Positions 14,752 through 64,000 of a stretch of 64,000 bases of DNA are shown here, one piece after another. The translations under genes were made by a program, and so were the position numbers. The DNA is taken from contig OX637394.1 in assembly GCA_951799425.1 (NCBI GenBank), positions 33,020,001 through 33,084,000 of the forward strand. Direction: 5' to 3'. The stretch comes from Ilex aquifolium. Lineage: Eukaryota; Streptophyta; Magnoliopsida; Aquifoliales; Aquifoliaceae. Each line of letters opens with the position of its first letter. Position 1 is the first letter of the stretch. Under the pieces are notes generated by a model. That model saw only the letters and a list, made by a program, of their open reading frames with translations, made no database searches and was not told where the DNA came from.

Positions 14752-17498
14752 AATATAATGTTAATTTAGAGTTGAGTTAACGAATTAAATGTTTATTTGA
14801 TTAATTTTCATATTACTTTGGTTTGGTGTTGATTTGATAAATTAATTTTTTTTTGGATTATTTTGGATGTTAATTTTGATAAATTGAGTGGTAATTGGAT
14901 GAATTGAATGTCGATTTAGTATTAATTTGATGAATTGAATATTAATTGGATGAATTAAATGTTAATTTGATATTAATTTGATGAATTAAATATTAATTTC
15001 ATAAAATTGAATGTCAATTTAATTGTGTTGGGTTAGATTAGGAACAAAATAAAAATAGTGTTATAGTTTAGGGGTGTAAATATAATTTAAACTAAAACCG
15101 GTCCTAGGAATGGTGGACCGATCGTGTGTATAATTACACTTACTTCTCCTATCATATTACATTTTTATCCCTTTGATATTACACTTTTAACCTTTTGATA
15201 TTATAATTCATCAAATTAACATCCAAACTCATCCAATAAATACTCAATTTGTTAAATCAACAAGTAACATGCAATTAATACTCAATTCATCAAATTTACA
15301 CCAAATTAACATTCAATTCTTCAAATCAACATTTAATTTTACGTAATAAACATTTAATTCATCAACGTAACATTCAATCTCATCCAATTTATATTCAAAT
15401 TCATTCAAGTAACATTCAATTCATAAAATTTTACATCAAAAATCCTCGATTTAAAAAATTAACACCAAAGTAACGTGCAATTTCATCCAATAAACGTTTA
15501 ATTTTTCAAATAAATAACAAATTAACATTCAATTCTTCAAATCAACATTCAATTTCATCTAATAAACATTTAATTCATCAACTTAACATTCAATCACATC
15601 CAATTAATATTCAATTCATCAAATTAACATAAAATTAACATTCAATTCATTTAATTTATATTCAAGTGCATTAAATATACACTCAATTTATCAAATTACC
15701 ATCGTTTATTTATTAATTGAATGTTTATTAGATGAAATGTGATGTTAATTTAGAGTTGAGTTAATGAATTAAATGTTTATTTGATTAATTTTCATATTAC
15801 TTTGGTTTGGTGTTGATTTGATAAATTAAATTTTTTTTGGATTATTTTGGTTGTTAATTTTGATAAATTGAGTGGTAATTGAATGAATTGAATGTCGATT
15901 TAGTATTAATTTGATGAATTAAATATTAATTTCATGAAATTGAATGTTAATTTAATTGTGTTGGGTTAGATTGGGAACAAAATAAAAATAGTGTTATAGT
16001 TTAGGGGTGTAAATATAATTTAAACTAAGACCGGTCCTAGGAATGGTGGACCAATCGTGTGTATAATTATACTTACTTCTCCTATCATATTACACTTTTA
16101 TCCATTTGATATTACACTTTTAACCTTTTGATATTATAATTCATCAAATTAACATCCAAACTCATCCAATAAATACTCAATTTATTAAATCAATAAGTAA
16201 CATGCAATTAATACTCAATTCATCAAATTTACACTAAATTAACATTCAATTTTTCAAATCAACATTTAATTTTACCTAATAAACATTTAATTAATCAACG
16301 TAACATTCAATCTCATCCAATTTATATTCAAATTCATTCAAGTAACATTCAATTCATAAAATTAACATCGAAAATTCTCGATTTAACAAATTAACACCAA
16401 AGTAACGTGCAATTTTATCCAATAAACGTTTAATTATTCAAATAAATAACAAATTAATATTCAATTCTTCAAATCAACATTCAATTTCATCTAATAAACA
16501 TTTAATTCATCAACTTAACATTCAAATTATCATATTAACACCAAATTAAAATTCAAGTCATCAAATTAATATTTAATTCATTAAATTAACATTCAATTCA
16601 TCAAATTAAAATATAAAATCATCTAATAAAGATTTAATTCATCAAATCAATACCAAATTAACATTCAATTTAACAAATTAACATTTCATTTCGAATAATA
16701 AACATTCAATTCATTAAATTAACATTTAAATTAACTATTTAATATTCAATTCATCAAATTAACACCAAATTAACTTTCAATTCTTCAAATCAACACCAAA
16801 CTAACATTCAATTCATCAAATTAACACAAAATTAATATTCAATTCATTAAATTCACATTCAATTCTATCTAATAAACATTTAATTCATCAAACTAACCTA
16901 ACATTCAATTTATCAAATATATATTCAAATTCATCCAATTTACACTCAATTCATCAAATTAACATCCAAAATCATCTAATAAAAATTCAATTTATTAAAC
17001 CAACACCAATGTAATATAAAAATTCATTGAATAAATATTTAATTCATCAAAACAACACTAAATTAGCATTCAATTCAACAAATTAACATTTCATTTTGTA
17101 TAATAAACATTTAGTTCATAAAATTAACATTGAAATTAACTATTTAAAATTAAATTCATCAAATTAAGATTCAATTTCATCCAATTAATATTCAATTCAT
17201 CAAATTATCACCAAATTAATATTCACTTCTTCAAATTAACACTAAATTAACTTTGAATTCATAAAATTAACACAACATTAATACTCAATTCATCAAACTC
17301 ACATTCAATTCCATCTAATAAATAATTAATTCATCAAATTAACTTAACATTCAATTCATCAAATAAATATTAAATTAATCAAATTAATACTAAATTAACA
17401 TTCAATTCATCCAATTTATATTCAAAATCATCCAATTAAAACTCAATTCATCAAATTAACATCCAAAATCATCTAATAAAATTCAATTTATCAAACCA
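14752..17498. repeat. AT-rich satellite, left outer block
   Basis: Imperfect tandem array of words such as ATTCAATTCATCAAATTAAC and its complement; no coding potential. Polarity switches: complement orientation at about 14,760-15,060 and 15,720-16,020, direct orientation elsewhere. Segments 14,760-15,700 and 15,745-16,500 are two copies of a longer period (about 985 bp). A conserved non-satellite module (contains CCGGTCCTAGGAATGGTGGA) sits at about 15,023-15,210 and 15,957-16,142. The left palindrome arm begins inside this block at 15,236. Confidence 0.93.
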
Positions 17499-17503
17499 AC
17501 ACC

Positions 17504-20493: not shown

Positions 20494-22340
20494 AATGTAA
20501 TATAGAAATTTATTGAATAAACATTTAAATATATTGTAATATGTAATATGTTATAGTGTTATAGTGTTATGGGAACAAAATAAAAATAGTGTTATAGTTT
20601 AGGGGTGTAAGTGTAATTTAAACTAAGACCGGTCCTAGGAATGGTGGATCGATCGTGTGTATAATTACACTTACTTATCCTATCATATTACATTTTTATC
20701 CCTTTGATATTACACTTTTAACCTTTTGATATTATAATTCATCAAATTAACATCCAAAATCATCCAATAAATATTCAATTTATTAAATCAACAATTAACA
20801 TGCAATTTCATCAATTTAATACTCAATTCATCAAATTTACACCAAATTAACATTCAATTCTTCAAATCAACATTTAATTTTACCTAATAAACATTTAATT
20901 CATTAAATTAACATTAAAATTCAACTAATAAACATTTAAATTAACATTAAAATTCAACTAATAAACATTTAATTCATCAACGTAACATTCAATCTCATCC
21001 AATTTATATTCAAATTCATTCAATTAACATTCAATTCATAAAATTAACATCGAAAATCCTCGATTTAACAAATTAACACCAAAGTAACGTGCAATTTCAT
21101 CTAATAAACGTTTAATTTTTCAAATAAATAACAAATTAACATTCAATTCTTCAATTCAACATTCAATTTCATCTAATAAACATTTAATTCATCAACTTGA
21201 TAGTCAATCACATCCAATTAATATTAAATTCATCAAATGAACATTCAATTCATCTAATTTATATTCAAATTCATTAAATTAACACTCAATTTATCAAATT
21301 AGCATCGAAAATCATTCAATAAAAGTTCAATTTAACAAATCAACATCAAAGTAACATAGAGTTACATCCAATAAACATTTAATTCATCAAATCAATACTA
21401 AATTAATATTCAATTCAACAAATTAACATTCAATTTCATCTAATAACATTTAATATTCAATTCATCAAATTTATACCAAATAAACATTCAAATCATCATA
21501 TTAACACCAAATTAAAATTCAATTCTTCAAATTAATATTTAATTCATTAAATTAACATTCAATTCATCAAATTAAAATATAAAATCATCTAATAAAGATT
21601 TAAATCATCAAATCAATACCAAATTAACATTCAATTTAACAAATTAACATTTCATTTCGAATAATAAACATTCAATTCATTAAATTAACTATTTAACATT
21701 CAATTCATCAAATTAACACCGAATTAACTTTCAATTCTTCAAATCAACACCAAACTAACATTCAATTCATCAAATTAATACAAAATTAATATTCAATTCA
21801 TTAAATTCGCATTCAATCCTGACCCCTAAAAAAAATGTTCACTTACATTAGAACGAGTCAAGACTTGGATCACTAAGGTAAGCAACGGAGGATTATCAAA
21901 GACAAAGTCAGCAAAAGAGTTTCACATCGCGGACTCAGCAGGGAAGGCAAGACCAGTAACCACAGTGAAAGAGATGGAGGGAAGGCAAGACCAGTAACCA
22001 GTCGTTTAGGCGGGAAAGTGGACCACAATATTCACAATGAAAAAATATATATATATTGTAATATGTTATAGTGTTATGGGAACAAAATAAAAATAGTGTT
22101 ATAGTTTAAGGGTGTAAGTGTAATTTAAACTAAGACAGGTTCTTGGAATGGTGGACCGATCTGTGTATAATTACAATTACTTATCCTATTATATTACACT
22201 TTTATCCCTTTGATATTACACTTTTAACTTTTTGATATTATAATTCATCAAATTAACATCCAAAATCATCCAATAAATATTCAATTTATTAAATTAACAA
22301 TTAACATGCAATTTCATCAATTTAATACTCAATTCATCAA
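20494..22340. repeat. AT-rich satellite between LTR C and minisatellite
   Basis: Same ATTCAATTCATCAAATTAAC-type satellite. Two copies of the CCGGTCCTAGGAATGG-containing module occur at about 20,560-20,750 and 22,065-22,248 (the second decayed to CAGGTTCTTGGAATGG). A non-satellite insert lies at about 21,820-22,040. No genes. Confidence 0.92.
21820..22040. other. Non-satellite insert of unknown origin
   Basis: About 220 bp of higher-GC sequence starting TGACCCCTAAAAAAAATG within AT satellite, containing two copies of GGAAGGCAAGACCAGTAACC about 40 bp apart. No recognisable domain or terminal repeat. Mirror copy at about 56,726-56,946. Confidence 0.6.
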
Positions 22341-22678
22341 TTATGGGTAATAGTTCCAACTTTTTTGGTAAGGGTTCCAACTGTTGGGGTAGGGGTTCCA
22401 ACTCTTGGGGGAGGGGTTCTAACTTTTTTGGGTAGGGGTACCAATTTTTTTTGGGTAGGGGTTCCAACTTTTTTGGGTAGGGGTTCCAACTCTTGGGAGA
22501 GGGGTTCCAACTTTTTTGGGTAGGGGTTCCAACTTTTTTGGATAGAGGTTCCAACTTTTTTGGGTAAGGGTTCCAACTTTTATACGTAGTGGTCCCAACT
22601 TTTTTGGGCAAGGGTTCCAACTTTTGGGGGGGTTCTAACTTTTTTGGGTTTGGGTTCCAACTCTTGGGGAAGGGGTTC
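22341..22678. repeat. 22-bp minisatellite, outer part (left arm)
   Basis: GGTTCCAAC-based array, interrupted at 22,678 by insertion of element D; it resumes at 32,614 after the duplicated GGTTC. Mirror block 56,072-56,425 has one extra unit. Confidence 0.95.
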
Positions 22679-25118
22679 TGTGACGCCCCAAATTTCCGGG
22701 GGTCCTTTATTCACCGTTGATAAACCCATCAACCAGCGGAAATACCCGTGAATGTCGCTTAACCAGACACCACGTCACCACATTCCCTTTACCGGGACTT
22801 ATAATTATATGTAAAAGAATCACAAGTCTAACTTCTTTTGGTTGGTTGACCCATCCGAGGTCAAATATGCCACCATTGGTATCCTATTATTGTTCAATTA
22901 TAACCTTTAAAGGAAGGAAACAATAGCCCAAGGGTTTGGCAAACAAAATTAAAATTTCAGAAAAATTTTGGAGGGCGTACCGGTACGGTATGCCCACTGG
23001 ACCTCGGCGTACCGGTACGCGTACCGGTACGCTCTACCTTCTGGCTGTCGCCGTACCGGTACGGTTCTACCACTTTTGCCTTTTTCCTCTGTTTTTCACT
23101 TCCAATCCATTCAACACACATCTTTTCCATCCAACACATATTTAATTAAGTTTTTCCCATAAAACATGATACATATAAATTCTATTACAAACATTTATAT
23201 GAATTTACATACCAAAACCAAGTTTTTATAATAATTTTACAAAAAACTCAAAATAAAGCCACATTCCGGCTTTCTTCAACCTTGGGGCTCGAAATGGGAG
23301 CCGTCCGCCGGTGTGAACCCAGCACCTGAAATATTTTTCCCACAAAGGGTGAGCCACGCTCAATAGGGTATCTCCTAATGAGGCTACTCCCCAACCTAAA
23401 TGCATATGAAATGCTCACATGCCACAAAACAACAACTCATAACATTCCAAGCAAAGAAATATATTCGATGATGGAATTTGCAATGCCATGCTATGAAATG
23501 AGGTGAGACCCACTCATGCGTATCAACTGAGCCCTTCCCGGCTCCTCTACACATGCAAGTGCCAATGTGTACCAATCCGTCATTTATGTTGCACATCAAA
23601 TGACCTTTCATTCTAGGGTCTATATAGGGGTGGATGTTCATGGACTCACACCAAAGGTCACCCAACCTACACGGAATTCATGGACTTCCACCAACGGTTC
23701 CGCGTACACCGACACACTTTATGGGCTCTTATACCAACGGAGTGCGTATCCAATCACCGGGTCTCTCACCCGAGGGATAGTCTAGCCCTTCTTGCTACCC
23801 CAACCCTATCAACATATAAACCATGCGACTCGACTAGGTCATCGACCCATATTACCCGAGCCCACTCGTCATCCACCACGCGTGGTGAAGACAACCACCA
23901 TGCACACACACCCACTAAATGCGATGTTCCCGTGCATATGCAATGTGATGCTCCATTGCAACAATATTACCATGTTCAATATGCTATGAGGAACACATGA
24001 ACATTCCAATCACATTTTACATATTTCATGGCAAAATTACATCATAAGCATATAATTTCCATAATTCTCTACAATGTCAATATATTATAACATGTATACA
24101 TATACCAACATTTTATCTTGAATAACATCCAAGCATGTCATCAAAAAATCAAGTAATAGCACACTTTAATTCTCATGGCATAATATAAGCACATAGCATG
24201 CCCACAATTCACATAATCCAAGAATTTCATTGGGTCAATCCCATATACCCAATTCTAGAAATTTCATTTAAAAATTTCTAATTACCAACCCAATTAGAAT
24301 TGATCTTTACCCATTTCAATACCTATTTCAACACATTACCAACAATAGGCAAGAGATATACAATCTATCATCCTACCCATTTCATAAAAACATCCTAGGT
24401 TTGGAATAAACCTTAGTAGGAGGGAACCCTACCTCTTGTAGCGTGTAGAATCGTCGTGGGAAGCTCCTAGAACTCAAAGCAAGCTTGAATCATCCACTTC
24501 CAACTTTTCGGCCTCCCAACGTTCGATGAAAGCCGTCGTTTTTGGTACCCACGCGTAGCCCTCGACGCGTAGAGCAACTCTTGTTCTTGGCCCGAGTCGA
24601 TTTGAGCGCTAGAACGGAGTAGATCATAGAGAGAAGGTGGAGTGTTTCTCTCTTTTCCCTCTCTTCTCAATTGGCTGAACAATCAGCTGACACAATGGGG
24701 AAAAATCTAATTTTTTCCCCCTATTTATATTTTAGAATACTTGGCCCACAATTGGCCACACGTCCTATTTAATTTCGGGTCCGTTTTAATCCCGAAACGA
24801 CTAAATTTCGCTCCGGTTCAAGTTCGAATTTTTTTTATTTCAACTTGCCTCTAATATTTCCCCAAACTTTAAAATTTTATAAAAATTTCGTGTACGGGGT
24901 CACCCGAGGCCCGTTCGTCTCGTAAAACGCGAAAAATCCGACTATCTCGGAATTCAACGAAATTTGACAGGGTAATTAGATTTCGCGAGACGAATCCAAC
25001 GGTGATGTCTGTTTCGTCATCCGAGCTCTAGAAAATTTCAGGTTTACAACCTGTACCATAGTGGCAATTTACCATTTTGCCCTTTTTCACAAAAGTTCAA
25101 ATTTTCTCGGGTTTTACA
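22679..25118 (-). mobile_element. 3' LTR of element D (left)
   Basis: 2440 bp, plus-strand TGTGACGCCCC to GGGTTTTACA. Three clusters of CGTACCGGTACG lie at 22,976-23,063; here the doubled copy is at the middle site, a configuration also found in the 3' LTR of D' but not in either 5' LTR. Confidence 0.95.
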
Positions 25119-25135
25119 TTCTTCCCCCCTTAAAA
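25119..25135 (-). other. Polypurine tract of element D (left)
   Basis: Minus-strand TTTTAAGGGGGGAAGAA immediately before the 3' LTR terminus TGTAAAAC. Confidence 0.88.
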
Positions 25136-25212
25136 GAATTTCGTCCCCGAAATTCACACACTCATGCACATACAACCACATGCATATGCAGCAGTCGTAT
25201 AATACTAAATGA

Positions 25213-26643
25213 CTATAAGAATGTACCTCCATCCTCAAATAAGAAAGGATAATTGGCACGTATGGTGTCCTTACGCTCCCATGTTGCCTCCTCCACTCCT
25301 CGGTGCTGCCACAACACCTTTACAAGCCTCACGGTCTTGCCTCGCAAAACTTGATCCCGGCTATCCATGACACGCACTGGTCCTTCCTCGAAGGTTCCAT
25401 CCGTATCAACAACAAGCTCGCCCCAATCCACAACATGCGTCGGATCTGGAGTATACTTCCGAAGCATGGAGACATGGAATACAGCGTGAACGCCCGATAA
25501 AGTTGGCGGTAACGCCAATCTGTAGGCCACAGTGCCCACTTTCTCAAGTATTTCGAAGGGCCCAATATACCTCGGCGACAGCTTTCCCCGCTTGCCGAAT
25601 CTGACCACTCCTCTCTTAGGCATCACCTTCAAGAAGACATGATCCCCCACCTCAAATTCCAGAGGCCGCCGCCGCCTATCGGGGTAGCTCTTCTGCCGGC
25701 TTTGAGTCGTGAGAAGACGCTTCCTTATCAGATCCACCTTCTCCGATGCGTCTCTTATCAATTCTGGACCCGTAGAGGGTCTTTCTCCAACCTCAGTCCA
25801 ACAAACCGGAGAACGACAAGGCCTCCCATAAAGTGCCTCATAGGGTGTCATCTGTATGCTAGCCTGATAACTGTTGTTATAGGCGAATTCCACTAAGGGT
25901 AAATGTTCTTCCCAGCTACCCTTGAGGTCTAGGACGCATGCCCGTAGAATGTCCTCTAATGTCTGGATGGTCCGTTCCGACTGACCGTCCGTTTGGGGAT
26001 GGAAGGCTGTGCTCATCCTCAACTGAGTCCCCATGGCTTGCTGGAAACTCTCCCAAAAGTGAGCCGTAAACCTAGGATCCCGATCCGATACTATAGATAC
26101 GGGTACCCCATGCAACCGGACTATCTCCCTTATGTACAACCTGCAGAATTCCTCCAGAGTGAAGGTCATCCGCAGCGCCAAAAAGTGTGCCGACTTCGTA
26201 AGCCGGTCCACTATCACCCACACCGCATCATGTCCCCGCGATGTCCGTGGCAAGTGGGTCACAAAATCCATGGTGACGTGTTCCCACTTCCACTCAGCCA
26301 CCTCTAATGGCTGGAGCAACCCTGCTGGTCTCTGGTGCTTGGCTTTAATCTGCTGACATGTGAGGCATTTATTGACAAAGTCGCCAATCTGCCTCTTCAT
26401 CCCGCTCCAATAATACTGGCGACGAAGATCATGATACATCTTCGTGCCGCCTGGATGCATCGCAAAACGGGAGCAATGGAACTCCCTGAGGATCTCCTCT
26501 CTCAGATCTGCCGACTGGGGAACCATAACCCTTCCCCTAAACCGAAGACTACCATCCGAGTGAATGGCCCAGCCCTCGTCCAGTACCCGTCTGCACTCGG
26601 TCCCTAATGGACGATAACTCTGGGTCCTGCCCCTGGGACTCAA
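25213..26643 (-). pseudogene. Integrase and chromodomain-like tail, element D (left)
   Basis: Minus-strand ORF of 476 residues. Integrase zinc finger ([10 protein letters not shown] with CLTCQQ) and core (MDFVTH, VSDRD, QSERT) are present, and the tail ends [17 protein letters not shown]. It is in a different frame from RNase H because two bases (present in D') are missing at 26,580/26,581; the first roughly 30 codons before the true frame are spurious. Compared with D', several residues differ (for example QMT versus RMA before PYEALYG), mostly explainable by C/T or G/A changes. Confidence 0.92.
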
Positions 26644-27475
26644 TCACTCTGCTCAGTAGGGAAGGCTTAGCCACCAAGCTCCCTAAAACACCCTGAGTCC
26701 GACCCCGATAATGAAGCCCAAATTGGCCAACGGCCTCATGCATCCGCCACTCCCGGGAAGCCACACTAGCTAAGACACCCCGTGACTTCTGACTAAGTGC
26801 ATCAGCCACCACATTTGCCTTACCAGGGTGGTAATGCAAAGTGAAGTCATAGTCTTCTAGGTACTCCATCCACCTACGCTGCCTCATGTTGAGGTCCCGC
26901 TGAGTGAAGATGTACTTCAGACTTTTGTGGTCTGAAAACACCTCAAATCGTTCACCATACAAATAGTGGCGCCAAGCCTTCAAGGCAAAGACTATGGCCG
27001 CCAATTCCATGTCATGCGTGGGGTAATTCTGCTCGTGATTCTTCAACTGTCGAGAACCATAGGCCACCACTCTCCCGGACTGCATCAAGACACAACCCAG
27101 TCCGTCCTTGGAGGCATCGCAATACACCGTGTAGTTTTGTCCCCTTTCTGGAACAATCAAGATAGGAGCTGAAGTGAGCCTCCTCTTTAGTTCTTGGAAT
27201 GCCTTCTCACACGAATCATTCCACTCGAACTTGACCTCCTTCCAGGTCAATCTAGTCATAGGTGCGGCTAGTCGGGAGAAGTCCTCGATGAACCTCCGGT
27301 AATACCCTGCCAATCCCAAGAAACTACGTATCTCGAAGACTGACTTTGGTCGCTCCCAACTCATCACTGCCTCGACTTTCTCCGGGTCAACTGACACCCC
27401 CGAAGCTGACACAACGTGTCCCAAAAATTTCACCTCCGTAAGCCAAAATTCACACTTGCTGAACTTGGCGTACAA
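26549..27475 (-). pseudogene. RT thumb and RNase H, element D (left)
   Basis: Minus-strand ORF starting after the TAG that separates it from the RT palm. It contains the RT connection ([12 protein letters not shown]) and RNase H with CDAS, DMELA, FSDHKS and VVADALS. It runs out of frame near 26,580 at the 2-bp deletion, ending in about 14 aberrant residues. Confidence 0.92.
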
Positions 27476-29488
27476 CTAATGGTCCCTCAAGGTCTGGAGA
27501 ACAATCCTTAAGTGACCCTCATGCTCCTCCTCTGTCTTGGAGTAAATCAGGATGTCATCAACAAACACTACGACAAACTGATCTAAATAGGGCTGGAACA
27601 CCCAATGCATGAGATCCATGAATGCCGCTGGGGCATTCGTCAACCCAAATGGCATCACCGTGAACTCGAAATGCCCGTACCGCGTTCTGAACGCCGTCTT
27701 AGGGATATCTGACTCCCTAATCCTCAACTGATGGTAGCCCGTGCGGAGATCTATCTTTGAATAGACCCGCGCTCCCCTCAGCTGATCAAACAGATCATCG
27801 ATCCTCGGCAAATGGTACCTATTCTTGATGGTGACCCGGTTCAACTGCCAATAGTCTATACACAATCGAAGGGTCTTATTCTTCTTCTTGGCAAACAGCA
27901 CCGGAGCGCCCCAAGGTGAGGTACTCGGTCTAATAAAGCCCTTGTCCAATAATTCTTGTAATTGGACATTGAGTTCTTGCAACTCAGCTGGCGCCATCCT
28001 ATGTGGAGTCATAGAAATGGGCGAAGTACCCGGATGCAACTCAATGCTAAAGTCCACATCCCTATGGGGAGGTAATCCCGGTAACTCGTTCGAAAAGACG
28101 TCCTCATACTCGCACACCACCCGAGGTAGACTCAATTCTTGTCTTGCCTCGTCCTCCAGGGTAAGGCTCGCAAGCCAACCCATCAATTGCCCATGCCATC
28201 GTGAATCATACACGACTTGAGGCAAAGCATCATGTTTTTCCCCCTGAAACTTGAAACAAACACCGTTCGGGGTATAGGCAGTGACCCTCTTCCTATCACA
28301 ATCAATGACGACCCAATGCGCCGCCAACCAGTCCATCCCAAGGATGACATCGAACTCCGTCATGTCCATAACCTTAAGGTCCACGGTGAGTAGAATCCCC
28401 GAGATCTCCAGCTCACAACCCCGACATATCTGATTCACACACACCCTAGCTCCTAGGGGTGAATTCACATACAACGGCTCTTCCAAGGTATCAACCTCTA
28501 AGCCCAAATCCCTCACATATGATGCAAAAATGAATGAATGTGATGCACCAGCGTCAAATAACACTTTAGCCCATAAGCGAGAAAGTAGAAATGTACCCTG
28601 AATGACCGACTGGTCCACTGGCTCAGCCTGAGGTGTAATGGCGTAGACACGCCCCTGGGTCCCCGAAGTCCCGGCCTGCATGCCCTGTCCTCGGCCTCGA
28701 CCCATGCCCTGGCCCATCTGGCCTGATTGCGGAGTCCCCGCTCGGAAGGTGGTAGGGGCCTGAGTAGTGCCCTGGAATTGATACTGGCTTCCCTGGCCCA
28801 TGGTGGGGTAGGGAGGAATAAGGTGTGTCTGCGACTGTCCCACTGATGACTGGGACTGAGGTGTCCCATAGCTCTGGGATCCTTGCCTCTGCGGACAATC
28901 CCGCTTCATATACCCCGGTTGGTGGCAATGGAAATATGTCTTCTGGCCTGCCTGGTGGGTAGTCCTGAAGTTTCTCCCGCCCTGGAAAAATTGACCTTGA
29001 CCTTGACCTTGGCCCTGATAGCCACGGCCCTGTCCTTGTTGTCCTTGTGGAGTAGAAATCCGCTGCTTCTTCCCCGAACTAGAAGAAGAGGATTGGCCCT
29101 CCTTCTTCTTATCCTTAGCACCCGCCTCACGGATGCTTCGTGCATCATCAACCTCCCTCTCAATGGCCATAGCCGTCTCGACCATAGAGTCCAAGTCTTG
29201 CAGGCGGAGGCCCACAATCTTTCCCCGGATGGACAGTTTCAACCCATCCTCAAACCTTCTTACCTTGGCCATATCCGTGGCCACGTAATCATCAGCAAAT
29301 CGGGCTAATTCGGTGAACTTAGCCACATACTCCATCACGGTCATTAACCCTTGCTTCAAATCTAGAAATTCCCGGGCCTTTGCATGCCGAACGGCCGTTG
29401 GGAAATATTTACCCATGAAGAGTTCCTTAAACTCTCCCCATGTCATGGCCTCTAAGTTCTTCGAGGCCGTCACCCAATCCCACCACAA
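27476..29488 (-). pseudogene. Gag C-terminal half, protease and RT palm, element D (left)
   Basis: Minus-strand ORF of 670 residues with the same domain order as 49,255-51,267. The zinc knuckle has lost its first Cys (Tyr) and, in this arm only, its His (Tyr), giving [11 protein letters not shown]. Protease DAGASHSF and ILGMDW and the RT FVDD are intact. Seven residues differ from the right copy, including MHWVF versus MHRVF. Confidence 0.93.
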
Positions 29489-29502
29489 TTGGGCTTCTCC
29501 TT

Positions 29503-29811
29503 CTAGTTGAATGCAGCTAGTCTTATCTTAGTAGCGTCTGAGGTGACCTCCATCGCCCCTAAGATCTTGTTAACTTGCCGGAACCAATGGTCGGCCACCA
29601 TCGGGTCCGCCCCTCCCATGAAGACTGGAGGTTTGTGTGCTTTAAACTGTTGGAGGTTACTCGCGCCTCCATGTCCGGCATTTGCACTAGCTTGTGCAAC
29701 AGTAGCCGCCATCATGCCCATGGTTTCCGTAAACGCTTGTTGATCGAAGACCGGTGGTGATTGATTATTGTTCCGCCCACCGCCTCGACGTCCTCTTCTT
29801 CCACTTGCCAT
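29503..29811 (-). pseudogene. Gag N-terminal part, element D (left)
   Basis: Minus-strand ATG at 29,811, ORF of 102 residues ending at TAG 29,503-29,505. Homology to plant gypsy gag continues without a gap in the neighbouring frame (WWDW at the start of the next ORF), so the end is a 1-nt frameshift. The same lesion is in the right arm and predates the duplication. Confidence 0.9.
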
Positions 29812-30153
29812 CTACACACACGTCAAATGGCAATGGTACACTAACTTAGTACCCCGAGGTGGGGACCAAAGTTAAAACGTTTATTATTGTCTTGTTGTCT
29901 CACTAGTAGAGCGTATGCCTCTAATAGTAGACATTTATTCTTTGAACTTTCCCGTTCATTTGCTTTACCACTCCCAAGATTAAGTTCTCTAACCCTAGTG
30001 TGTCCATTTCCCATATACAGTCTATCACGCATATAATACACATATCACATATCACATAACATGTAGCAATTTAAGCACAAAACATGTAATGTACAATGTA
30101 TGCAATGGTCTAGACCCATGCCCCATCAAGCCCTAGGTAAATCGCATACCTAT

Positions 30154-30165
30154 GCTCTGATACCA
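30154..30165 (-). other. Primer-binding site of element D (left)
   Basis: Minus-strand TGGTATCAGAGC, 3 bp from the 5' LTR. Complementary to initiator-Met tRNA. Confidence 0.93.
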
Positions 30166-30168
30166 AGC

Positions 30169-32608: not shown

Positions 32609-32613
32609 GGTTC

Positions 32614-35278: not shown

Positions 35279-35283
35279 AAATA

Positions 35284-37633: not shown

Positions 37634-37706
37634 AAATAACAATTGATTCCAAACATTAGTGAGGTTCTAATGGGTATTTCGGGCAAGTACTCAGGTGGGT
37701 GCCTTC

Positions 37707-38476: not shown

Positions 38477-38480
38477 TCAG

Positions 38481-40263: not shown

Positions 40264-40267
40264 CTGA

Positions 40268-41037
40268 TGATGCACAAATCGGTATAGCGCAAAATCAACA
40301 GTCAAGAATATGAATGGGTGTGGTTAATGAGCAATAAACAGATAATTAATGACAGATCAATGGCAAAACAGTAAATATAGAGTCAACACAAAGATTTATA
40401 GTGGTTCGGTCCGGGTGACCTACTCTACTCTCGGGAACGGCTGCGGTGTTCGGAGATCTTTATTGATGAACAATGTTACCGGGAGAGTGCACTCCGAGAG
40501 TATTACAGTGCTTTGGGAGAGCGTAACAATGTGTGTAGGGAGGTGTAGTGTGTGTAGGGATCTCAAATTGTAGAGGTCTCAAGGTCCTTGGACCTCTCTC
40601 TCTCCCTCTGTGTGGTGAAGGTGTATATAGGTATGGTGAGGCGGTGAGGCGGTTACCACTATTTTGGTAAGTACAATTAAGGTAGGACTCTACCATTTTG
40701 GTAAGTATAATCATGGTAGGACTAGATCTTCGTGCGTATCCCGATATTCTCTCCCTCGTGCTCCTATTCCGTCGGGGGAGGATCCTGAGCTAGGTTGGAC
40801 TTGAGCTGGAGTGACAAAGTCAAGAGGGCAAAGGACTACGCAGGAGAGGGAGCGTGGAACTAAGGAGGGAAGGGATCCCCTTGGGGTGGCCCCCCTTGGG
40901 GCGACGCCCCTTTGGGGTTGTCCCTTGGACTCCTCTTTGACTTGATGACTTCTCCTTGACATGATGACTTGGGTTTCGGGATAACGTGAACCTCTCTTGA
41001 TTCGTTGGCTCTGGCCCAGTTAATTTCGGACTCATCA
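40268..41037 (-). mobile_element. 5' LTR of element F' (right)
   Basis: Mirror of 37,707-38,476; I noted no differences in its translated shadows. Boundaries inferred as for F. Confidence 0.7.
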
Positions 41038-41110
41038 GAAGGCACCCACCTGAGTACTTGCCCGAAATACCCATTAGAACCTCACTAATGTTTGGAATCA
41101 ATTGTTATTT

Positions 41111-43460: not shown

Positions 43461-43465
43461 TATTT

Positions 43466-46130: not shown

Positions 46131-46135
46131 GAACC

Positions 46136-48574: not shown

Positions 48575-48577
48575 GCT

Positions 48578-48589
48578 TGGTATCAGAGC
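48578..48589 (+). other. Primer-binding site of element D' (right)
   Basis: TGGTATCAGAGC, 3 bp after the 5' LTR; complementary to initiator-Met tRNA. Confidence 0.94.
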
Positions 48590-48931
48590 ATAGGTATGCG
48601 ATTTACCTAGGGCTTGATGGGGCATGGGTCTAGACCATTGCATACATTGTACATTACATGTTCTGTGCTTAAATTGCTACATGTTATGTGATATGTGATA
48701 TGTGTATTATATGCGTGATAGACTGTATATGGGAAATGGACACACTAGGGTTAGAGAACTTAATCTTGGGAGTGGTAAAGCAAATGAACGGGAAAGTTCA
48801 AAGAATAAATGTCTACTATTAGAGGCATAGGCTCTACTAGTGAGACAACAAGACAATAATAAACGTTTTAACTTTGGTCCCCACCTTGGGGTACTAAGTT
48901 AGTGTACCATTGCCATTTGACGTGTGTGTAG

Positions 48932-49240
48932 ATGGCAAGTGGAAGAAGAGGACGTCGAGGCGGTGGGCGGAACAATAATCAATCACCACCGGTCTTCGAT
49001 CAACAAGCGTTTACGGAAACCATGGGCATGATGGCGGCTACTGTTGCACAAGCTAGTGCAAATGCCGGACATGGAGGCGCGAGTAACCTCCAACAGTTTA
49101 AAGCACACAAACCTCCAGTCTTCATGGGAGAGGCGGACCCGATGGTGGCCGACCATTGGTTTCGGCAAGTTAACAAGATCTTAGGGACGATGGAGGTCAC
49201 CTCAGACGCTACTAAGATAAGACTAGCTGCATTCAACTAG
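48932..49240 (+). pseudogene. Gag N-terminal part, element D' (right)
   Basis: ATG at 48,932, about 340 bp after the primer site. 102 residues with a basic RGRRGGGRNN start, an Ala-rich stretch and the gag-core entry KPPVFMGEADPMVADHWF. It ends at TAG 49,238-49,240 because one base is missing at about 49,234; gag homology continues in the adjacent frame. The break is shared with the left arm. Confidence 0.92.
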
Positions 49241-49254
49241 AAGGAGAAGCCCAA

Positions 49255-51267
49255 TTGTGGTGGGATTGGGTGACGGCCTCGAAGAACTTAGAGGCCATGA
49301 CATGGGGAGAGTTTAAGGAACTCTTCATGGGTAAATATTTCCCAACAGCCGTTCGGCATGCAAAGGCCCAGGAATTTCTAGATTTGAAGCAAGGGTTAAT
49401 GACCGTGATGGAGTATGTGGCTAAGTTCACCGAATTAGCCCGATTTGCTGATGATTACGTGGCCACGGATATGGCCAAGGTAAGAAGGTTTGAGGATGGG
49501 TTGAAACTGTCCATCCGGGGAAAGATTGTGGGCCTCCGCCTGCAAGACTTGGACTCTATGGTCGAGACGGCTATGGCCATTGAGAGGGAGGTTGATGATG
49601 CACGAAGCATCCGTGAGGCGGGTGCTAAGGATAAGAAGAAGGAGGGCCAATCCTCTTCTTCTAGTTCGGGGAAGAAGCAGCGGATTTCTACTCCACAAGG
49701 ACAACAAGGACAGGGCCGTGGCTATCAGGGCCAAGGTCAAGGTCAAGGTCAATTTTTCCAGGGCGGGAGAAACTTCAGGACTACCCACCAGGCAGGCCAG
49801 AAGACATATTTCCATTGCCACCAACCGGGGCATATGAAGCGGGATTGTCCGCAGAGGCAAGGATCCCAGAGCTATGGGACACCTCAGTCCCAGTCATCAG
49901 TGGGACAGTCGCAGACACACCTTATTCCTCCCTACCCCACCATGGGCCAGGGAAGCCAGTATCAATTCCAGGGCACTACTCAGGCCCCTACCACCTTCCG
50001 AGCGGGGACTCCGCAATCAGGCCAGATGGGCCAGGGCATGGGTCGAGGCCGAGGACAGGGCATGCAGGCCGGGACTTCGGGGACCCAGGGGCGTGTCTAC
50101 GCCATTACACCTCAGGCTGAGCCAGTGGACCAGTCGGTCATTCAGGGTACATTTCTACTTTCTCGCTTATGGGCTAAAGTGTTATTTGACGCTGGTGCAT
50201 CACATTCATTCATTTTTGCATCATGTGTGAGGGATTTGGGCTTAGAGGTTGATACCTTGGAAGAGCCGTTGTATGTGAATTCACCCCTAGGAGCTAGGGT
50301 GTGTGTGAATCAGATATGTCGGGGTTGTGAGCTGGAGATCTCGGGGATTCTACTCACCGTGGACCTTAAGGTTATGGACATGACGGAGTTCGATGTCATC
50401 CTTGGGATGGACTGGTTGGCGGCGCATTGGGTCGTCATTGATTGTGATAGGAAGAGGGTCACTGCCTATACCCCGAACGGTGTTTGTTTCAAGTTTCAGG
50501 GGGAAAAACATGATGCTTTGCCTCAAGTCGTGTATGATTCACGATGGCATGGGCAATTGATGGGTTGGCTTGCGAGCCTTACCCTGGAGGACGAGGCAAG
50601 ACAAGAATTGAGTCTACCTCGGGTGGTGTGCAAGTATGAGGACGTCTTTCCGAACGAGTTACCGGGATTACCTCCCCATAGGGATGTGGACTTTAGCATT
50701 GAGTTGCATCCGGGTACTTCGCCCATTTCTATGACTCCACATAGGATGGCGCCAGCTGAGTTGCAAGAACTCAAGGTCCAATTACAAGAATTATTGGACA
50801 AGGGCTTTATTAGACCGAGTACCTCACCTTGGGGCGCTCCGGTGCTGTTTGCCAAGAAGAAGAATAAGACCCTTCGATTGTGTATAGACTATTGGCAGTT
50901 GAACCGGGTCACCATCAAGAATAGGTACCATTTGCCGAGGATCGATGATCTGTTTGATCAGCTGAGGGGAGCGCGGGTCTATTCAAAGATAGATCTCCGC
51001 ACGGGCTACCATCAGTTGAGGATTAGGGAGTCAGATATCCCTAAGACGGCGTTCAGAACGCGGTACGGGCATTTCGAGTTCACGGTGATGCCATTTGGGT
51101 TGACGAATGCCCCAGCGGCATTCATGGATCTCATGCATAGGGTGTTCCAGCCCTATTTAGATCAGTTTGTCGTAGTGTTTGTTGATGACATCCTGATTTA
51201 CTCCAAGACAGAGGAGGAGCATGAGGGTCACTTAAGGATTGTTCTCCAGACCTTGAGGGACCATTAG
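49255..51267 (+). pseudogene. Gag C-terminal half, protease and RT palm, element D' (right)
   Basis: 670-residue ORF. Gag core at about residues 1-125; a Q/G-rich linker; one zinc knuckle at about 184-198 ([14 protein letters not shown], first Cys replaced by Tyr); protease with DAGASHSF at about 312-319 and ILGMDW at about 382-387; RT from about 515 with [23 protein letters not shown] and FVDD at about 642-645. In LCIDYWQLN a Trp stands where family members usually have Arg. It ends at TAG 51,265-51,267 between palm and thumb; the next ORF continues in the same frame with no missing sequence. Confidence 0.94.
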
Positions 51268-53532
51268 TTGTACGCCAAGTTCAGCAAGTGTGAATTTTGG
51301 CTTACGGAGGTGAAATTTTTGGGACACGTTGTGTCAGCTTCGGGGGTGTCAGTTGACCCGGAGAAAGTCGAGGCAGTGATGAGTTGGGAGCGACCAAAGT
51401 CAGTCTTCGAGATACGTAGTTTCTTGGGATTGGCAGGGTATTACCGGAGGTTCATCGAGGACTTCTCCCGACTAGCCGCACCTATGACTAGATTGACCCG
51501 GAAGGAGGTCAAGTTCGAGTGGAATGATTCGTGTGAGAAGGCATTCCAAGAACTAAAGAGGAGGCTCACTTCAGCTCCTATCTTGATTGTTCCAGAAAGG
51601 GGACAAAACTACACGGTGTATTGCGATGCCTCCAAGGACGGACTGGGTTGTGTCTTGATGCAGTCCGGGAGAGTGGTGGCCTATGGTTCTCGACAGTTGA
51701 AGAATCACGAGCAGAATTACCCCACGCATGACATGGAATTGGCGGCCATAGTCTTTGCCTTGAAGGCTTGGCGCCACTATTTGTATGGTGAACGATTTGA
51801 GGTGTTTTCAGACCACAAAAGTCTGAAGTACATCTTCACTCAGCGGGACCTCAACATGAGGCAGCGTAGGTGGATGGAGTACCTAGAAGACTATGACTTC
51901 ACTTTGCATTACCACCCTGGTAAGGCAAATGTGGTGGCTGATGCACTTAGTCGGAAGTCACGGGGTGTCTTAGCTAGTGTGGCTTCCCGGGAGTGGCGGA
52001 TGCATGAGGCCGTTGGCCAATTTGGGCTTCATTATCGGGGTCGGACTCAGGGTGTTTTAGGGAGCTTGGTGGCTAAGCCTTCCCTACTGAGCAGAGTGAT
52101 TGAGTCCCAGGGGCAGGACCCAGAGTTATCGTCCATTAGGGACCGAGTGCAGACGGGTACTGGTGACGAGGGCTGGGCCATTCACTCGGATGGTAGTCTT
52201 CGGTTTAGGGGAAGGGTTATGGTTCCCCAATCGGCAGATCTGAGAGAGGAGATCCTCAGGGAGTTCCATTGCTCCCGTTTTGCGGTGCATCCAGGCGGCA
52301 CGAAGATGTATCATGATCTTCGTCGCCAGTATTATTGGAGCGGGATGAAGAGGCAGATTGGCGACTTTGTCAATAAATGCCTCACATGTCAGCAGATTAA
52401 AGCCAAGCACCAGAGACCAGCAGGGTTGCTCCAGCCATTAGAGGTGGCTGAGTGGAAGTGGGAGCACGTCACCATGGATTTTGTGACCCACTTGCCACGG
52501 ACATCGCGGGGACATGATGCGGTGTGGGTGATAGTGGACCGGCTTACGAAGTCGGCACACTTTTTGGCGCTGCGGATGACCTTCACTCTGGAGGAATTCT
52601 GCAGGTTGTACATAAGGGAGATAGTCCGGTTGCATGGGGTACCCGTATCTATAGTATCGGATCGGGATCCTAGGTTTACGGCTCACTTTTGGGAGAGTTT
52701 CCAGCAAGCCATGGGGACTCAGTTGAGGATGAGCACAGCCTTCCATCCCCAAACGGACGGTCAGTCGGAACGGACCATCCAGACATTAGAGGACATGCTA
52801 CGGGCATGCGTCCTAGACCTCAAGGGTAGCTGGGAAGAACATTTACCCTTAGTGGAATTCGCCTATAACAACAGTTATCAGGCTAGCATACGGATGGCAC
52901 CCTATGAGGCACTTTATGGGAGGCCTTGTCGTTCTCCGGTTTGTTGGACTGAGGTTGGAGAAAGACCCTCTACGGGTCCAGAATTGATAAGAGACGCCTC
53001 GGAGAAGGTGGATCTGATAAGGAAGCGTCTTCTCACGGCTCAAAGCCGGCAGAAGAGCTACCCCGATAGGCGGCGGCGGCCTCTGGAATTTGAGGTGGGG
53101 GATCATGTCTTCTTGAAGGTGATGCCTAAGAGAGGAGTGGTCAGATTCGGCAAGCGGGGAAAGCTGTCGCCGAGGTATATTGGGCCCTTCGAAATACTTG
53201 AGAAAGTGGGCACTATGGCCTACAGATTGGCGTTACCGCCAACTTTATCGGGCGTTCACGCTGTATTCCATGTCTCCATGCTCCGGAAGTATACTCCAGA
53301 TCCGACGCATGTTGTGGATTGGGGCGAGCTTGTTGTTGATACGGATGGAACCTTCGAGGAAGGACCAGTGCGTGTCATGGATAGCCGGGATCAAGTTTTG
53401 CGAGGCAAGACCGTGAGGCTTGTAAAGGTGTTGTGGCAGCACCGAGGAGTGGAGGAGGCAACATGGGAGCGTAAGGACACCATACATGCCAATTATCCTT
53501 TCTTATTTGAGGATGGAGGTACATTCTTATAG
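51268..53532 (+). pseudogene. RT thumb, RNase H, integrase and chromodomain-like tail, element D' (right)
   Basis: 754-residue ORF in frame with the preceding one. RT thumb (1-100); RNase H with D119 (CDAS), E157 (DMELA), D182 (FSDHKS) and D225 (VVADAL); integrase zinc finger with H341, C371 and C374; catalytic D404, D465 and E501 (35 residues between D465 and E501); C-terminal [10 protein letters not shown] and a chromodomain-like end [17 protein letters not shown] at about 720-740. All catalytic residues I looked for are present. Followed by a 94-bp spacer with the polypurine tract. Confidence 0.95.
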
Positions 53533-53609
53533 TCATTTAGTATTATACGACTGCTGCATATGCATGTGGTTGTATGTGCATGAGTGTGTGAATTTCGGGG
53601 ACGAAATTC

Positions 53610-53626
53610 TTTTAAGGGGGGAAGAA
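53610..53626 (+). other. Polypurine tract of element D' (right)
   Basis: TTTTAAGGGGGGAAGAA directly before TGTAAAACCCGAG of the 3' LTR. Confidence 0.9.
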
Positions 53627-56066
53627 TGTAAAACCCGAGAAAATTTGAACTTTTGTGAAAAAGGGCAAAATGGTAAATTGCCACTATGGTACAGGTTGTA
53701 AACCTGAAATTTTCTAGAGCTCGGATGACGAAACAGACATCACCGTTGGATTCGTCTCGCGAAATCTAATTACCCTGTCAAATTTCGTTGAATTCCGAGA
53801 TAGTCGGATTTTTCGCGTTTTACGAGACGAACGGGCCTCGGGTGACCCCGTACACGAAATTTTTATAAAATTTTAAAGTTTGGGGAAATATTAGAGGCAA
53901 GTTGAAATAAAAAAAATTCGAACTTGAACCGGAGCGAAATTTAGTCATTTCGGGATTAAAACGGACCCGAAATTAAATAGGACGTGTGGCCAATTGTGGG
54001 CCAAGTATTCTAAAATATAAATAGGGGGAAAAAATTAGATTTTTCCCCATTGTGTCAGCCGATTGTTCAGCCGATTGAGAAGAGAGGGAAAAAAGAGAAA
54101 CACTCCACCTTCTCTCTACGATCTACTCCGTTCTAGAGCTCAAATCGACTCGGGCCAAGAACAAGAGTTGCTCTACGCGTCGAGGGCTACGCGTGGGTAC
54201 CAAAAACGACGGCTTTCATCGAACGTTGGGAGGCCGAAAAGTTGGAAGTGGATGATTCAAGCTTGCTTTGAGTTCTAGGAGCTTCCCACGACTATTCTAC
54301 ACGCTACAAGAGGTAGGGTTCCCTCCTACTAAGGTTTATTCCAAACCTAGGATGTTTTTATGAAATGGGTAGGATGATAGATTGTATATCTCTTGCCTAT
54401 TGTTGGTAATGTGTTGAAATAGGTATTGAAATGGGTAAAGATCAATTCTAATTGGGTTGGTAATTAGAAATTTTTAAATGAAATTTCTAGAATTGGGTAT
54501 ATGGGATTGACCCAATGAAATTCTTGGATTATGTGAATTGTGGGCATGCTATGTGCTTATATTATGCCATGGGAATTAAAGTGTGTTATTACTTGATTTT
54601 GTGATGACATGCTTGGGTGTTATTCAAGATAAAATGTTGGTATATGTATACATGTTATAATATATTGACATTGTAGAGAATTATGGAAATTATATGCTTA
54701 TGATGTAATTTTGCCATGAAATATGTAAAATGTGATTGGAATGTTCATGTGTTCCTCATAGCATATTGAACATGGTAATATTGTTGCAATGGAGCATCAC
54801 ATTGCATATGCACGGGAACATCGCATTTAGTGGGTGTGTGTGCATGGTGGTTGTCTTCACCACGCGTGGTGGATGACGAGTGGGCTCGGGTAATATGGGT
54901 CGATGACCTAGTCGAGTCGCATGGTTTATATGTTGATAGGGTTGGGGTAGCAAGAAGGGCTAGACTATCCCTCGGGTGAGAGACCCGGTGATTGGATACG
55001 CACTCCGTTGGTATAAGAGCCCATAAAGTGTGTCGGTGTACGCGGAACCGTTGGTGGAAGTCCATGAATTCCGTGTAGGTTGGGTGACCTTTGGTGTGAG
55101 TCCATGAACATCCACCCCTATATAGACCCTAGAATGAAAGGTCATTTGATGTGCAACATAAATGACGGATTGGTACACATTGGCACTTGCATGTGTAGAG
55201 GAGCCGAGAAGGGCTCAGTTGATACGCATGAGTGGGTCTCACCTCATTTCATAGCATGGCATTGCAAATTCCATCATCGAATATATTTCTTTGCTTGGAA
55301 TGTTATGAGTTGTTGTTTTGTGGCATGTGAGCATTTCATATGCATTTAGGTTGGGGAGTAGCCTCATTAGGAGATACCCTATTGAGCGTGGCTCACCCTT
55401 TGTGGGAAAAATATTTCAGGTGCTGGGTTCACACCGGCGGACGGCTCCCATTTCGAGCCCCAAGGTTGAAGAAAGCCGGAATGTGGCTTTATTTTGAGTT
55501 TTTTGTAAAATTATTATAAAAACTTGGTTTTGGTATGTAAATTCATATAAATGTTTGTAATAGAATTTATATGTATCATGTTTTATGGGAAAAACTTAAT
55601 TAAATATGTGTTGGATGGAAAAGATGTGTGTTGAATGGATTGGAAGTGAAAAACAGAGGAAAAAGGCAAAAGTGGTAGAACCGTACCGGTACGGCGACAG
55701 CCAGAAGGTAGAGCGTACCGGTACGCGTACCGGTACGCCGAGGTCCAGTGGGCATACCGTACCGGTACGCCCTCCAAAATTTTTCTGAAATTTTAATTTT
55801 GTTTGCCAAACCGTTGGGCTATTGTTTCCTTCCTTTAAAGGTTATAAATGAACAATAATAGGATACCAATGGTGGCATATTGGACCTCGGATGGGTCAAC
55901 CAACCAAAAGAAGTTAGACTTGTGATTCTTTTACATATAATTATAAGTCCCGGTAAAGGGAATGTGGTGACGTGGTGTCTGGTTAAGCGACATTCACGGG
56001 TATTTCCGCGGGTTGATGGGTTTATCAACGGTGAATAAAGGACCCCCGGAAATTTGGGGCGTCACA
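53627..56066 (+). mobile_element. 3' LTR of element D' (right)
   Basis: 2440 bp, TGTAAAACCCGAG to GGGGCGTCACA. TATAAATA at 54,016. Shares 3'-LTR-specific variants with the left 3' LTR (for example the doubled CGTACCGGTACG at the middle site, 55,682-55,769). Confidence 0.95.
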
Positions 56067-61319: not shown

Positions 61320-63581
61320 TGGTTTGATAAATTGAATTTTATTAGATGATTTTGGATGTTAATTTGATGAATTGAGTTTTAATTGGATGATTTTGAATAT
61401 AAATTGGATGAATTGAATGTTAATTTAGTATTAATTTGATTAATTTAATATTTATTTGATGAATTGAATGTTAAGTTAATTTGATGAATTAATTATTTAT
61501 TAGATGGAATTGAATGTGAGTTTGATGAATTGAGTATTAATGTTGTGTTAATTTTATGAATTCAAAGTTAATTTAGTGTTAATTTGAAGAAGTGAATATT
61601 AATTTGGTGATAATTTGATGAATTGAATATTAATTGGATGAAATTGAATCTTAATTTGATGAATTTAATTTTAAATAGTTAATTTCAATGTTAATTTTAT
61701 GAACTAAATGTTTATTATACAAAATGAAATGTTAATTTGTTGAATTGAATGCTAATTTAGTGTTGTTTTGATGAATTAAATATTTATTCAATGAATTTTT
61801 ATATTACATTGGTGTTGGTTTAATAAATTGAATTTTTATTAGATGATTTTGGATGTTAATTTGATGAATTGAGTGTAAATTAGATGAATTTGAATATATA
61901 TTTGATAAATTGAATGTTAGGTTAGTTTGATGAATTAAATGTTTATTAGATAGAATTGAATGTGAATTTAATGAATTGAATATTAATTTTGTGTTAATTT
62001 GATGAATTGAATGTTAGTTTGGTGTTGATTTGAAGAATTGAAAGTTAATTTGGTGTTAATTTGATGAATTGAATATTAAATAGTTAATTTAAATGTTAAT
62101 TTAATGAATTGAATGTTTATTATTCGAAATGAAATGTTAATTTGTTAAATTGAATGTTAATTTGGTATTGATTTGATGAATTAAATCTTTATTAGATGAT
62201 TTTATATTTTAATTTGATGAATTGAATGTTAATTTAATGAATTAAATATTAATTTGATGACTTGAATTTTAATTTGGTGTTAATATGATAATTTGAATGT
62301 TAAGTTGATGAATTAAATGTTTATTAGATGAAATTGAATGTTGATTTGAAGAATTGAATATTAATTTGTTATTTATTTGAATAATTAAACGTTTATTGGA
62401 TAAAATTGCACGTTACTTTGGTGTTAATTTGTTAAATCGAGAATTTTCGATGTTAATTTTATGAATTGAATGTTACTTGAATGAATTTGAATATAAATTG
62501 GATGAGATTGAATGTTACGTTGATTAATTAAATGTTTATTAGGTAAAATTAAATGTTGATTTGAAAAATTGAATGTTAATTTAGTGTAAATTTGATGAAT
62601 TGAGTATTAATTGCATGTTACTTATTGATTTAATAAATTGAGTATTTATTGGATGAGTTTGGATGTTAATTTGATGAATTATAATATCAAAAGGTTAAAA
62701 GTGTAATATCAAATGGATAAAAGTGTAATATGATAGGAGAAGTAAGTATAATTATACACACGATCGGTCCACCATTCCTAGGACCGGTCTTAGTTTAAAT
62801 TATATTTACACCCCTAAACTATAACACTATTTTTATTTTGTTCCCAATCTAACCCAACACAATTAAATTAACATTCAATTTCATGAAATTAATATTTAAT
62901 TCATCAAATTAATACTAAATCGACATTCAATTCATCCAATTACCACTCAATTTATCAAAATTAACAACCAAAATAATCCAAAAAAAATTTAATTTATCAA
63001 ATCAACACCAAACCAAAGTAATATGAAAATTAATCAAATAAACATTTAATTCATTAACTCAACTCTAAATTAACATCACATTTCATCTAATAAACATTCA
63101 ATTAATAAATAAACGATGGTAATTTGATAAATTGAGTGTATATTTAATGCACTTGAATATAAATTAAATGAATTGAATGTTAATTTTATGTTAATTTGAT
63201 GAATTGAATATTAATTGGATGTGATTGAATGTTAAGTTGATGAATTAAATGTTTATTAGATGAAATTAAATGTTGATTTGAAGAATTGAATGTTAATTTG
63301 TTATTTATTTGAAAAATTAAACGTTTATTGGATGAAATTGCACGTTACTTTGGTGTTAATTTTTTAAATCGAGGATTTTTGATGTAAAATTTTATGAATT
63401 GAATGTTACTTGAATGAATTTGAATATAAATTGGATGAGATTGAATGTTACGTTGATGAATTAAATGTTTATTACGTAAAATTAAATGTTGATTTGAAGA
63501 ATTGAATGTTAATTTGGTGTAAATTTGATGAATTGAGTATTAATTGCATGTTACTTGTTGATTTAACAAATTGAGTATTTA
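61320..63581. repeat. AT-rich satellite, right outer block
   Basis: Mirror of about 15,237-17,498. A CCGGTCCTAGG module lies at about 62,677-62,861. Polarity reverses at about 62,860 and again near 63,115, matching the left arm. Ends at ATTTA, a candidate target site for LTR G. Confidence 0.92.
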
Positions 63582-64000
63582 TGTAAAACCCGGGAAATTT
63601 GGATTTTTTTTTTTTAAAAAGGGCAAAATAGTAATTTGCCACTACAATGCGTATTTAAAATACTCATGTTTTAGACCTCGGATGAGGAAACAGAGTTCGA
63701 TGTTGAATTCGTATCGCGAAAACGAGTCACCTTGTCAAATTTCGTCGAATTCCAAGATAGTCGGATTTTGCACGTCGTTCGAGGCGACTGCGTGGCGAAT
63801 GACCTCACGAACGTCCCCATAAATGAGTTTTATAAAATTTCCTTAAAATTAAGTTTAAGTTTAAGTTTAAATAAAATTAATTTGAACTTAAACCGGGACC
63901 AAATAAATCGTTTCGGGACGAAATCGAACCCAATTAAGCGAGGGACACGTGGCACGACGTAGGCCGAGTATTTAAAACTATAAATAGGGGTAAATATCTA
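63582..64000 (+). mobile_element. LTR G, 5' end only
   Basis: TGTAAAACCCGGGAAATTTGG opens an LTR of the C/D/E superfamily: it shares GGGCAAAATAGTAATTTGCC, the CCTCGGATGAGGAAAC block and TATAAATAGGGG at 63,979 in the expected order. It is not present at the equivalent site of the left arm (15,236). The rest is beyond the window, so solo or full-length status is unknown. Confidence 0.88.

Follow-up and report, generated by a model that had tools for sequence, protein, structure and literature searches.

A palindrome spanning at least 508 kb around a seven-nucleotide loop in the assembled genome of Ilex aquifolium

A 64,000-nucleotide stretch of the holly genome (Ilex aquifolium, GCA_951799425.1, contig OX637394.1, here C4, positions 33,020,001–33,084,000; hereafter the window) lies, except for an insert at 63582–64000, entirely inside one palindrome, whose arms meet at a seven-base spacer within a truncated Gypsy gag sequence. 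The palindrome spans at least 508 kb (C4:32,822,001–33,330,225), with arms of at least 237 kb. The anatomy of the junction favours fold-back as the source of a genuine inverted duplication, a reading in which our confidence is about evenly balanced. The assembly comprises 800 Mb in 103 contigs, and all comparisons rest on its assembled sequence, of which 200 kb around the window and a set of outlying probes were fetched. Coordinates without a C4 position in the megabase range are those of the window.

Extent of the palindrome and divergence of its arms

Comparison of the window with itself revealed two reverse-complement arms centred at about 39372, with paired coordinates that sum to 78,744 close to the axis. 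A preliminary description of the window had given this sum and a 7-bp spacer, placed the palindrome at 15236–63582 (48 kb) and described it as built from nested retrotransposons. The arms, the sum and the spacer (TCCTTTG, 39369–39375) were borne out, as were the nested retrotransposons (Gypsy pol and gag domains, an element at 22679–32608 with target-site duplication (TSD) GGTTC, and a truncated gag element at the axis). The pairing at 15236–63582 is likewise real, but its edges are not the ends of the palindrome, which is about tenfold larger. The arms are as follows.

1–39368, plus strand: left arm (A); 15236–39368 pairs with 39376–63582, and the arm extends leftward past the window edge, reaching at least C4:32,822,001
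39376–63582, minus strand: right arm (B), the inverted copy; interrupted by a retrotransposon at 63582, it goes on to at least C4:33,330,225

The MAFFT alignment of 15236–39368 with 39376–63582 covers 24,083 columns; it contains 92 substitutions (0.38%) and 12 indels, a similarity far above chance. BLAST put the inner piece at 98.5% identity. The shortfall probably comes from the alignment itself, since a 22-mer array holds two 44-bp indels, offset from each other, that MAFFT was able to place. The remainder of the left arm in the window, 1–15235, pairs with approximately C4:33,093,674–33,108,948, to the right of the window. Pairing is continuous out to C4:32,964,327 and its partner 33,184,000, save for inserted sequence and some short segments that lack a match.

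Beyond that, the symmetry was sampled by six probes (33,184,000–33,330,225) and not read throughout. Position 32,920,931 paired with 33,237,987 (99.55%), 32,880,001 with 33,272,190 (99.43%), 32,842,001 with 33,310,244 (97.5% by BLAST, with gaps; 26 substitutions in 8,156 aligned) and, outermost, 32,822,001 with 33,330,225 (seven substitutions in 1,329 aligned bases, plus a 1-base and a 70-base gap). For the 32.82-Mb probe the mirror ranked second among its matches, was listed at 94% beside unrelated copies at 92–93%, and was confirmed on fetching. A 3-kb probe at C4:32,800,001 gave no mirror among the best 40 of 16,648 candidates scored, although an insert might span the probe entirely. It matched itself and copies of at most 98% elsewhere; roughly 460 bases on its left and 155 on its right had almost no match. 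Because this probe gave no mirror copy, the palindrome looks finite in extent, with its left end probably between 32,803,000 and 32,822,001. Mirror symmetry of the whole chromosome is disfavoured by the same probe (40 of 16,648 candidates scored); this type of search did find the 32.82-Mb mirror. Neither the window nor any of the fetched pieces contains an N, and the join is gap-free.

In 22 blocks that extend as far as 217 kb from the axis, 448 substitutions separate the arms in 113,750 bp (0.39%). This count omits blocks below 600 bp and any block falling on 66,144,661, the coordinate sum of the tandem long terminal repeat (LTR) units. An alternative count that includes this sum gave 392 in 85,897, with listed blocks from 19.8 kb outward; one of its blocks (63 in 5,410) is a cross-match between LTR units. 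The 448 substitutions comprise 300 transitions and 148 transversions, with an excess of transitions at CG (88 against 39.8 expected) and CHG sites (60 against 30.9 expected; p = 5e-25). Judged by this spectrum, the differences reflect the ageing of methylated plant DNA, not sequencing error.

Block rates are homogeneous out to 217 kb (chi2 = 29.1, df = 21, p = 0.11). Such even divergence is what one event would leave; recombining haplotypes are often more variable along their length than the copies made by one event. Arm differences are present as near to the spacer as 200, 552 and 833 bp (39168/39576, 38816/39928 and 38535/40209). The inner 8 kb of each arm (approximately 31369–47380) holds 18 differences against 30.8 expected from site composition (p = 0.004, with a cut-off set post hoc). 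A gradient of identity toward the axis was considered and set aside, being weak in this post hoc deficit and not seen at the level of blocks.

Transposable elements (TEs) and repeat units record the relative timing of the arm split. Three insertion features in the window bear on it.

22679–32608, minus strand: Gypsy LTR retrotransposon inside the 22-mer array of the left arm, with 2.44-kb LTRs that are 25 substitutions apart and TSD GGTTC
46136–56066, plus strand: right-arm counterpart of that insertion, the mirror copy on which the domains were read
63582–64000, plus strand: start of an LTR retrotransposon of 10,092 bp present in the right arm only (C4:33,083,582–33,093,673), TSD ATTTA

Among the four LTR copies of the nested element, 37 variable columns group by position (abba) and one by arm (aabb), gap columns included. 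Because the LTRs group by position across the arms, the nested insertion is judged older than the arm split. The same pairing rules out two independent insertions of the element. At 63582 the right arm turns into TGTAAAACCCGGG, the start of an LTR. The 10,092-bp element has ATTTA at both flanks, and the left arm carries a single ATTTA at the empty site, the pattern of an element inserted after the split. Several of the indels between the arms are whole units of 22-bp arrays.

Two larger differences were observed to the right of the window. At C4 33,115,125–33,123,387, 8.26 kb is present in the right arm only and lacks a clear TSD; the left arm looks deleted at the counterpart of this segment. 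At C4 33,131,126–33,148,415, the right arm has three LTRs spaced 7,467 bp apart against two in the left arm. Unequal exchange between LTRs would give this difference, either by adding one LTR-internal unit to the right arm or by removing one from the left. The order of events would then be nested insertion, arm split and, afterwards, the right-arm insertion, the apparent 8.3-kb loss from the left arm and the gain or loss of the LTR-internal unit.

Anatomy of the axis

The features at the axis are listed below.

39369–39375, plus strand: spacer TCCTTTG, an unpaired loop collinear with the gag of the left arm
39366–39378, plus strand: junction AGA-TCCTTTG-TCT, a 3-bp stem with a 7-nt loop, a layout matched in six unbroken genomic copies
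35284–39375, plus strand: left copy of the truncated Gypsy element, with an LTR at 35284–37633 followed by the 5' internal region and the start of gag; gag homology ends at the axis
39376–43460, minus strand: right copy of the truncated element, with its LTR at 41111–43460 by mirror coordinates (sum 78,744)

The left-arm reading frame that runs into the axis is a Gypsy gag. It matches Pfam Retrotrans_gag over profile positions 2–38 of 97 and then ends (E = 1e-4; 22.9 bits, slightly below the curated cut-off of 24.1). Among 17 gag protein relatives, those that reach the axis point carry LS[RK]SFV-SHFIGG or a similar string; the window has LSRSFV-YSVLQK at this place.

Six unbroken gag copies in the genome (L003, L005, L006, L014, L022 and L027), two of which are the mirror pair of a single element, read AGTAGA, seven nucleotides and then TCTCCCAC. 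All six places have TCTCCCACTTC after AGTAGA and the seven bases, and one of the six has the exact spacer TCCTTTG. The window runs in the order AGTAGA, TCCTTTG, TCT and then ACTCAG, which is the left arm backwards; its sequence after the loop is TCTACTCAG. The AGA/TCT inverted repeat stands at the edges of the loop in each of the six unbroken copies. This shared layout argues that the ancestral sequence already held AGA and TCT around a seven-base loop and that the strand switch came just after TCT.

Genomic matches to a 351-bp query from the axis, examined as the best 40 of 1,216 candidates, give the same picture of the loop. Other gag copies match the left arm, the spacer and TCT, most of them ending at query position 177–182, whereas matches on the other strand start from position 177 and lack the spacer. 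The loop is thus collinear with one arm only. The left arm and loop are accordingly ancestral in sequence, and the right arm is the copy. The best other copy of the query is 97% alike among the 40 candidates scored, and a purged assembly need not retain the unbroken allele.

The six best copies of the axis gag away from the axis (95–97%; 40 candidates scored) are at C4 32,974,998, 33,123,096, 33,173,109, 33,333,760, 33,392,582 and 33,427,254. They fall within a stretch of about 450 kb on C4, and the other listed copies, on other contigs or farther along C4, are 91–94% alike. This clustering hints at local spread, or at a duplicated neighbourhood of larger extent. A left-arm mirror of the copy at 33,333,760 was absent among the matches listed (40 candidates scored).

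Candidate origins

Fold-back would explain the junction as follows. A broken or stalled end within the Gypsy gag would have folded onto itself, its terminal three bases, TCT, pairing with the AGA just ahead of the 7-nt loop. Synthesis primed by this hairpin would have copied the left arm backwards for about 240 kb, and the new outer end would afterwards have been joined to other sequence. Fold-back is supported because the 7-nt loop and the 3-bp inverted microhomology are present in unbroken relatives, and the position of the stem at the strand switch matches what fold-back predicts. The gap-free join, the evenness of the divergence and the seemingly finite extent of the palindrome fit this origin as well. 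We infer that the plant itself carries the assembled junction, that a break or fork event started the process and that the outer end was healed afterwards.

Several known systems resemble this junction in part. Human fold-back inverted duplications (Hermetz et al. 2014, PMC3907307) likewise carry an inverted copy across a single-copy spacer, with inverted microhomology of 2–8 bp at 13 of 21 sequenced (disomy-inversion) junctions, against 3 bp here. Unlike the present case, they adjoin terminal deletions or translocations, neither of which was seen here. In yeast, hairpins with short loops (<15 nt) form one of two classes of foldback inversion, with synthesis primed by a hairpin at a resected or broken end (PMC7467729), and the loop described here falls in that size range. 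Those inversions are typical of mre11 and sae2 mutants and are stabilised by secondary rearrangements, and four-bp stems are among the less used ones there (PMC7467729); here the stem is 3 bp and the arms have diverged. Origin-dependent inverted-repeat amplification (ODIRA) in yeast also forms junctions at interrupted inverted repeats, of 2–14 bp (PMC10766183). Most of those repeats span 40–80 bp including the spacer and flank SUL1 and its origin (PMC10766183), whereas the span here is 13 bp, and a second junction was not seen in the sequence followed here.

Large palindromes are known from plants. Palindromes are described for poplar and willow sex regions (PMC9636151), and two from the willow W chromosome invite comparison: W.P1 has 20-kb arms and a 3,586-bp spacer, against arms of at least 237 kb and a 7-bp spacer here, and W.P2 has arms of 84–93 kb (two table pieces per arm summed) with a spacer unidentified in that report (PMC7023750). 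The willow palindromes bear genes and show partial gene conversion (PMC7023750), whereas only TE domains were found in the window proteins tested here, and the one hint that might bear on gene conversion is the weak deficit of differences near the axis. The VIM4–VIM2 and PAI inverted repeats of Arabidopsis are gene-sized (PMC13213937). A plant palindrome this large with a loop of a few bases was not met in our literature search, which is no proof of absence.

Several considerations weigh against fold-back. The 3-bp stem is short, would arise by chance about once in 64 cases and is weak evidence by itself. Long palindromes are regarded as unstable when the loop is only a few bases, and at 1.3e-8 substitutions per site per year the 0.39% divergence would correspond to about 150,000 years with the centre intact. 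The corresponding time is 790,000 years at 2.5e-9, a rate quoted in PMC7023750. Short-loop hairpins are suppressed by Mre11/Sae2 in yeast (PMC7467729), and the human fold-back spacers, at 766–70,466 bp, are all far longer than 7 bp (PMC3907307). Divergence of 0.39% with presence and absence of TEs can also arise between two haplotypes of one plant. Arm B was followed, in assembled sequence alone, to 33,330,225, short of the outer right junction. It is a tentative proposition, on the doubtful side, that a palindrome of this size (at least 508 kb) and with this 7-nt loop is natural and was kept in a plant chromosome, its centre intact, while its arms gained 0.39% divergence, TE insertions and repeat-unit changes.

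The strongest alternative, and a serious one that we nevertheless place below even chances, is that two haplotypes were joined head to head in assembly. The left arm would be one haplotype and the right arm the other, reversed, with a chimeric snap-back molecule bridging them at the axis and the arm length set by the length of the retained haplotig. The preliminary description had named both a haplotype join and a fold-back read as possible assembly products, along with a real palindrome of the kind linked to double-strand-break repair, dicentric breakage and fold-back amplification; of these, fold-back is backed by the junction anatomy and the haplotype join stays viable. Allelic divergence would suit the 0.39% substitutions and several large TE indels, as old duplicates equally would. 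The gag at the axis is a multi-copy sequence, of the kind in which assembly graphs become tangled, and this reading sidesteps the instability ascribed to such palindromes. Snap-back molecules may form in vitro, and foldback reads make up about 0.55–0.6% of Oxford Nanopore (ONT) genomic reads, although they are virtually absent from the HiFi data of the same report (PMC12870357); HiFi may not be the read type used here. A bridging read could also account for the deficit of differences in the inner 8 kb, yet such a molecule should give identical arms at the axis, where differences occur from 200 bp outward. Evenness of divergence across 217 kb likewise speaks against two joined haplotypes, and the gap-free join is unlike a scaffold join.

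An improbable third possibility is a recent, real palindrome between homologues, in which a fold-back end or broken homologue took the partner chromosome as template for its extension and the 0.39% is older heterozygosity. It would reconcile the intact 7-nt centre with the divergence of the arms, and the lower divergence near the axis would be a stretch copied from the same molecule. It requires an additional template switch, however, and it must contend with block rates that are homogeneous overall and with arms that differ as close as 200 bp from the spacer.

A single-molecule fold-back read entered into the assembly would yield a palindrome with a tiny spacer, and foldback read artefacts do share the inverted copy and near absence of a spacer (PMC12870357), but one folded molecule is insufficient because differences between the arms occur as near to the spacer as 200, 552 and 833 bp, and this origin, which predicts identical arms or indel-rich errors, is in effect excluded by the substitution spectrum (300 transitions to 148 transversions, with the CG and CHG excess), by indels of whole 22-mer units and a TE insertion with TSD between the arms, and by a span of more than 500 kb, which exceeds ordinary reads.

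If the fold-back duplication is real, it exceeds the plant palindromes met in our search of the literature, its junction lets the fold-back event be read at single-base level, and it puts the survival of tiny-loop palindromes in the germline to the test. Had it also persisted for that long, plant chromosomes would be tolerant of palindromes held not to last in bacteria, yeast and mammals. Should the structure instead be an assembly join, it exemplifies a class of error consisting of gap-free, haplotype-diverged hairpins of hundreds of kilobases, which inflate gene and repeat counts and which checks for identical arms would miss.

Repeat content of the arms

Nine translated pieces were scanned for domains, namely seven of the 16 window open reading frames of at least 150 amino acids and two gag pieces. 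Six carry retrotransposon domains; one gag piece has a DUF5039 match below the cut-off only, and two pieces are without a match. All domains found in the tested window proteins are of TEs (Gypsy-type pol and gag). Named pol relatives, taken as the best 120 of 7,955, are from flowering plants. A search for gag relatives in viral contigs gave 56 pattern matches, none of which was confirmed by tblastn, and an Rfam scan of the window gave no match at the gathering score.

Tandem arrays make up a further part of the arms, among them the following.

32609–33857, plus strand: 22-bp minisatellite array with unit-length indels between the arms; mirror at 44887–46135

The 22-bp minisatellite (GTTCCAACTTTTTTGGGTAGGG) occurs at 5302–5696, 22353–22678 and 32609–33857 and at their mirrors, and includes one array split by the nested retrotransposon. 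AT-rich arrays of units of about 20 bp (AAATTAACATTCAATTCATC) occupy 15302–17495 and 20735–21807 and their mirrors. With them goes a longer duplication, spaced about 930 bp, near 14.9–16.6 kb.

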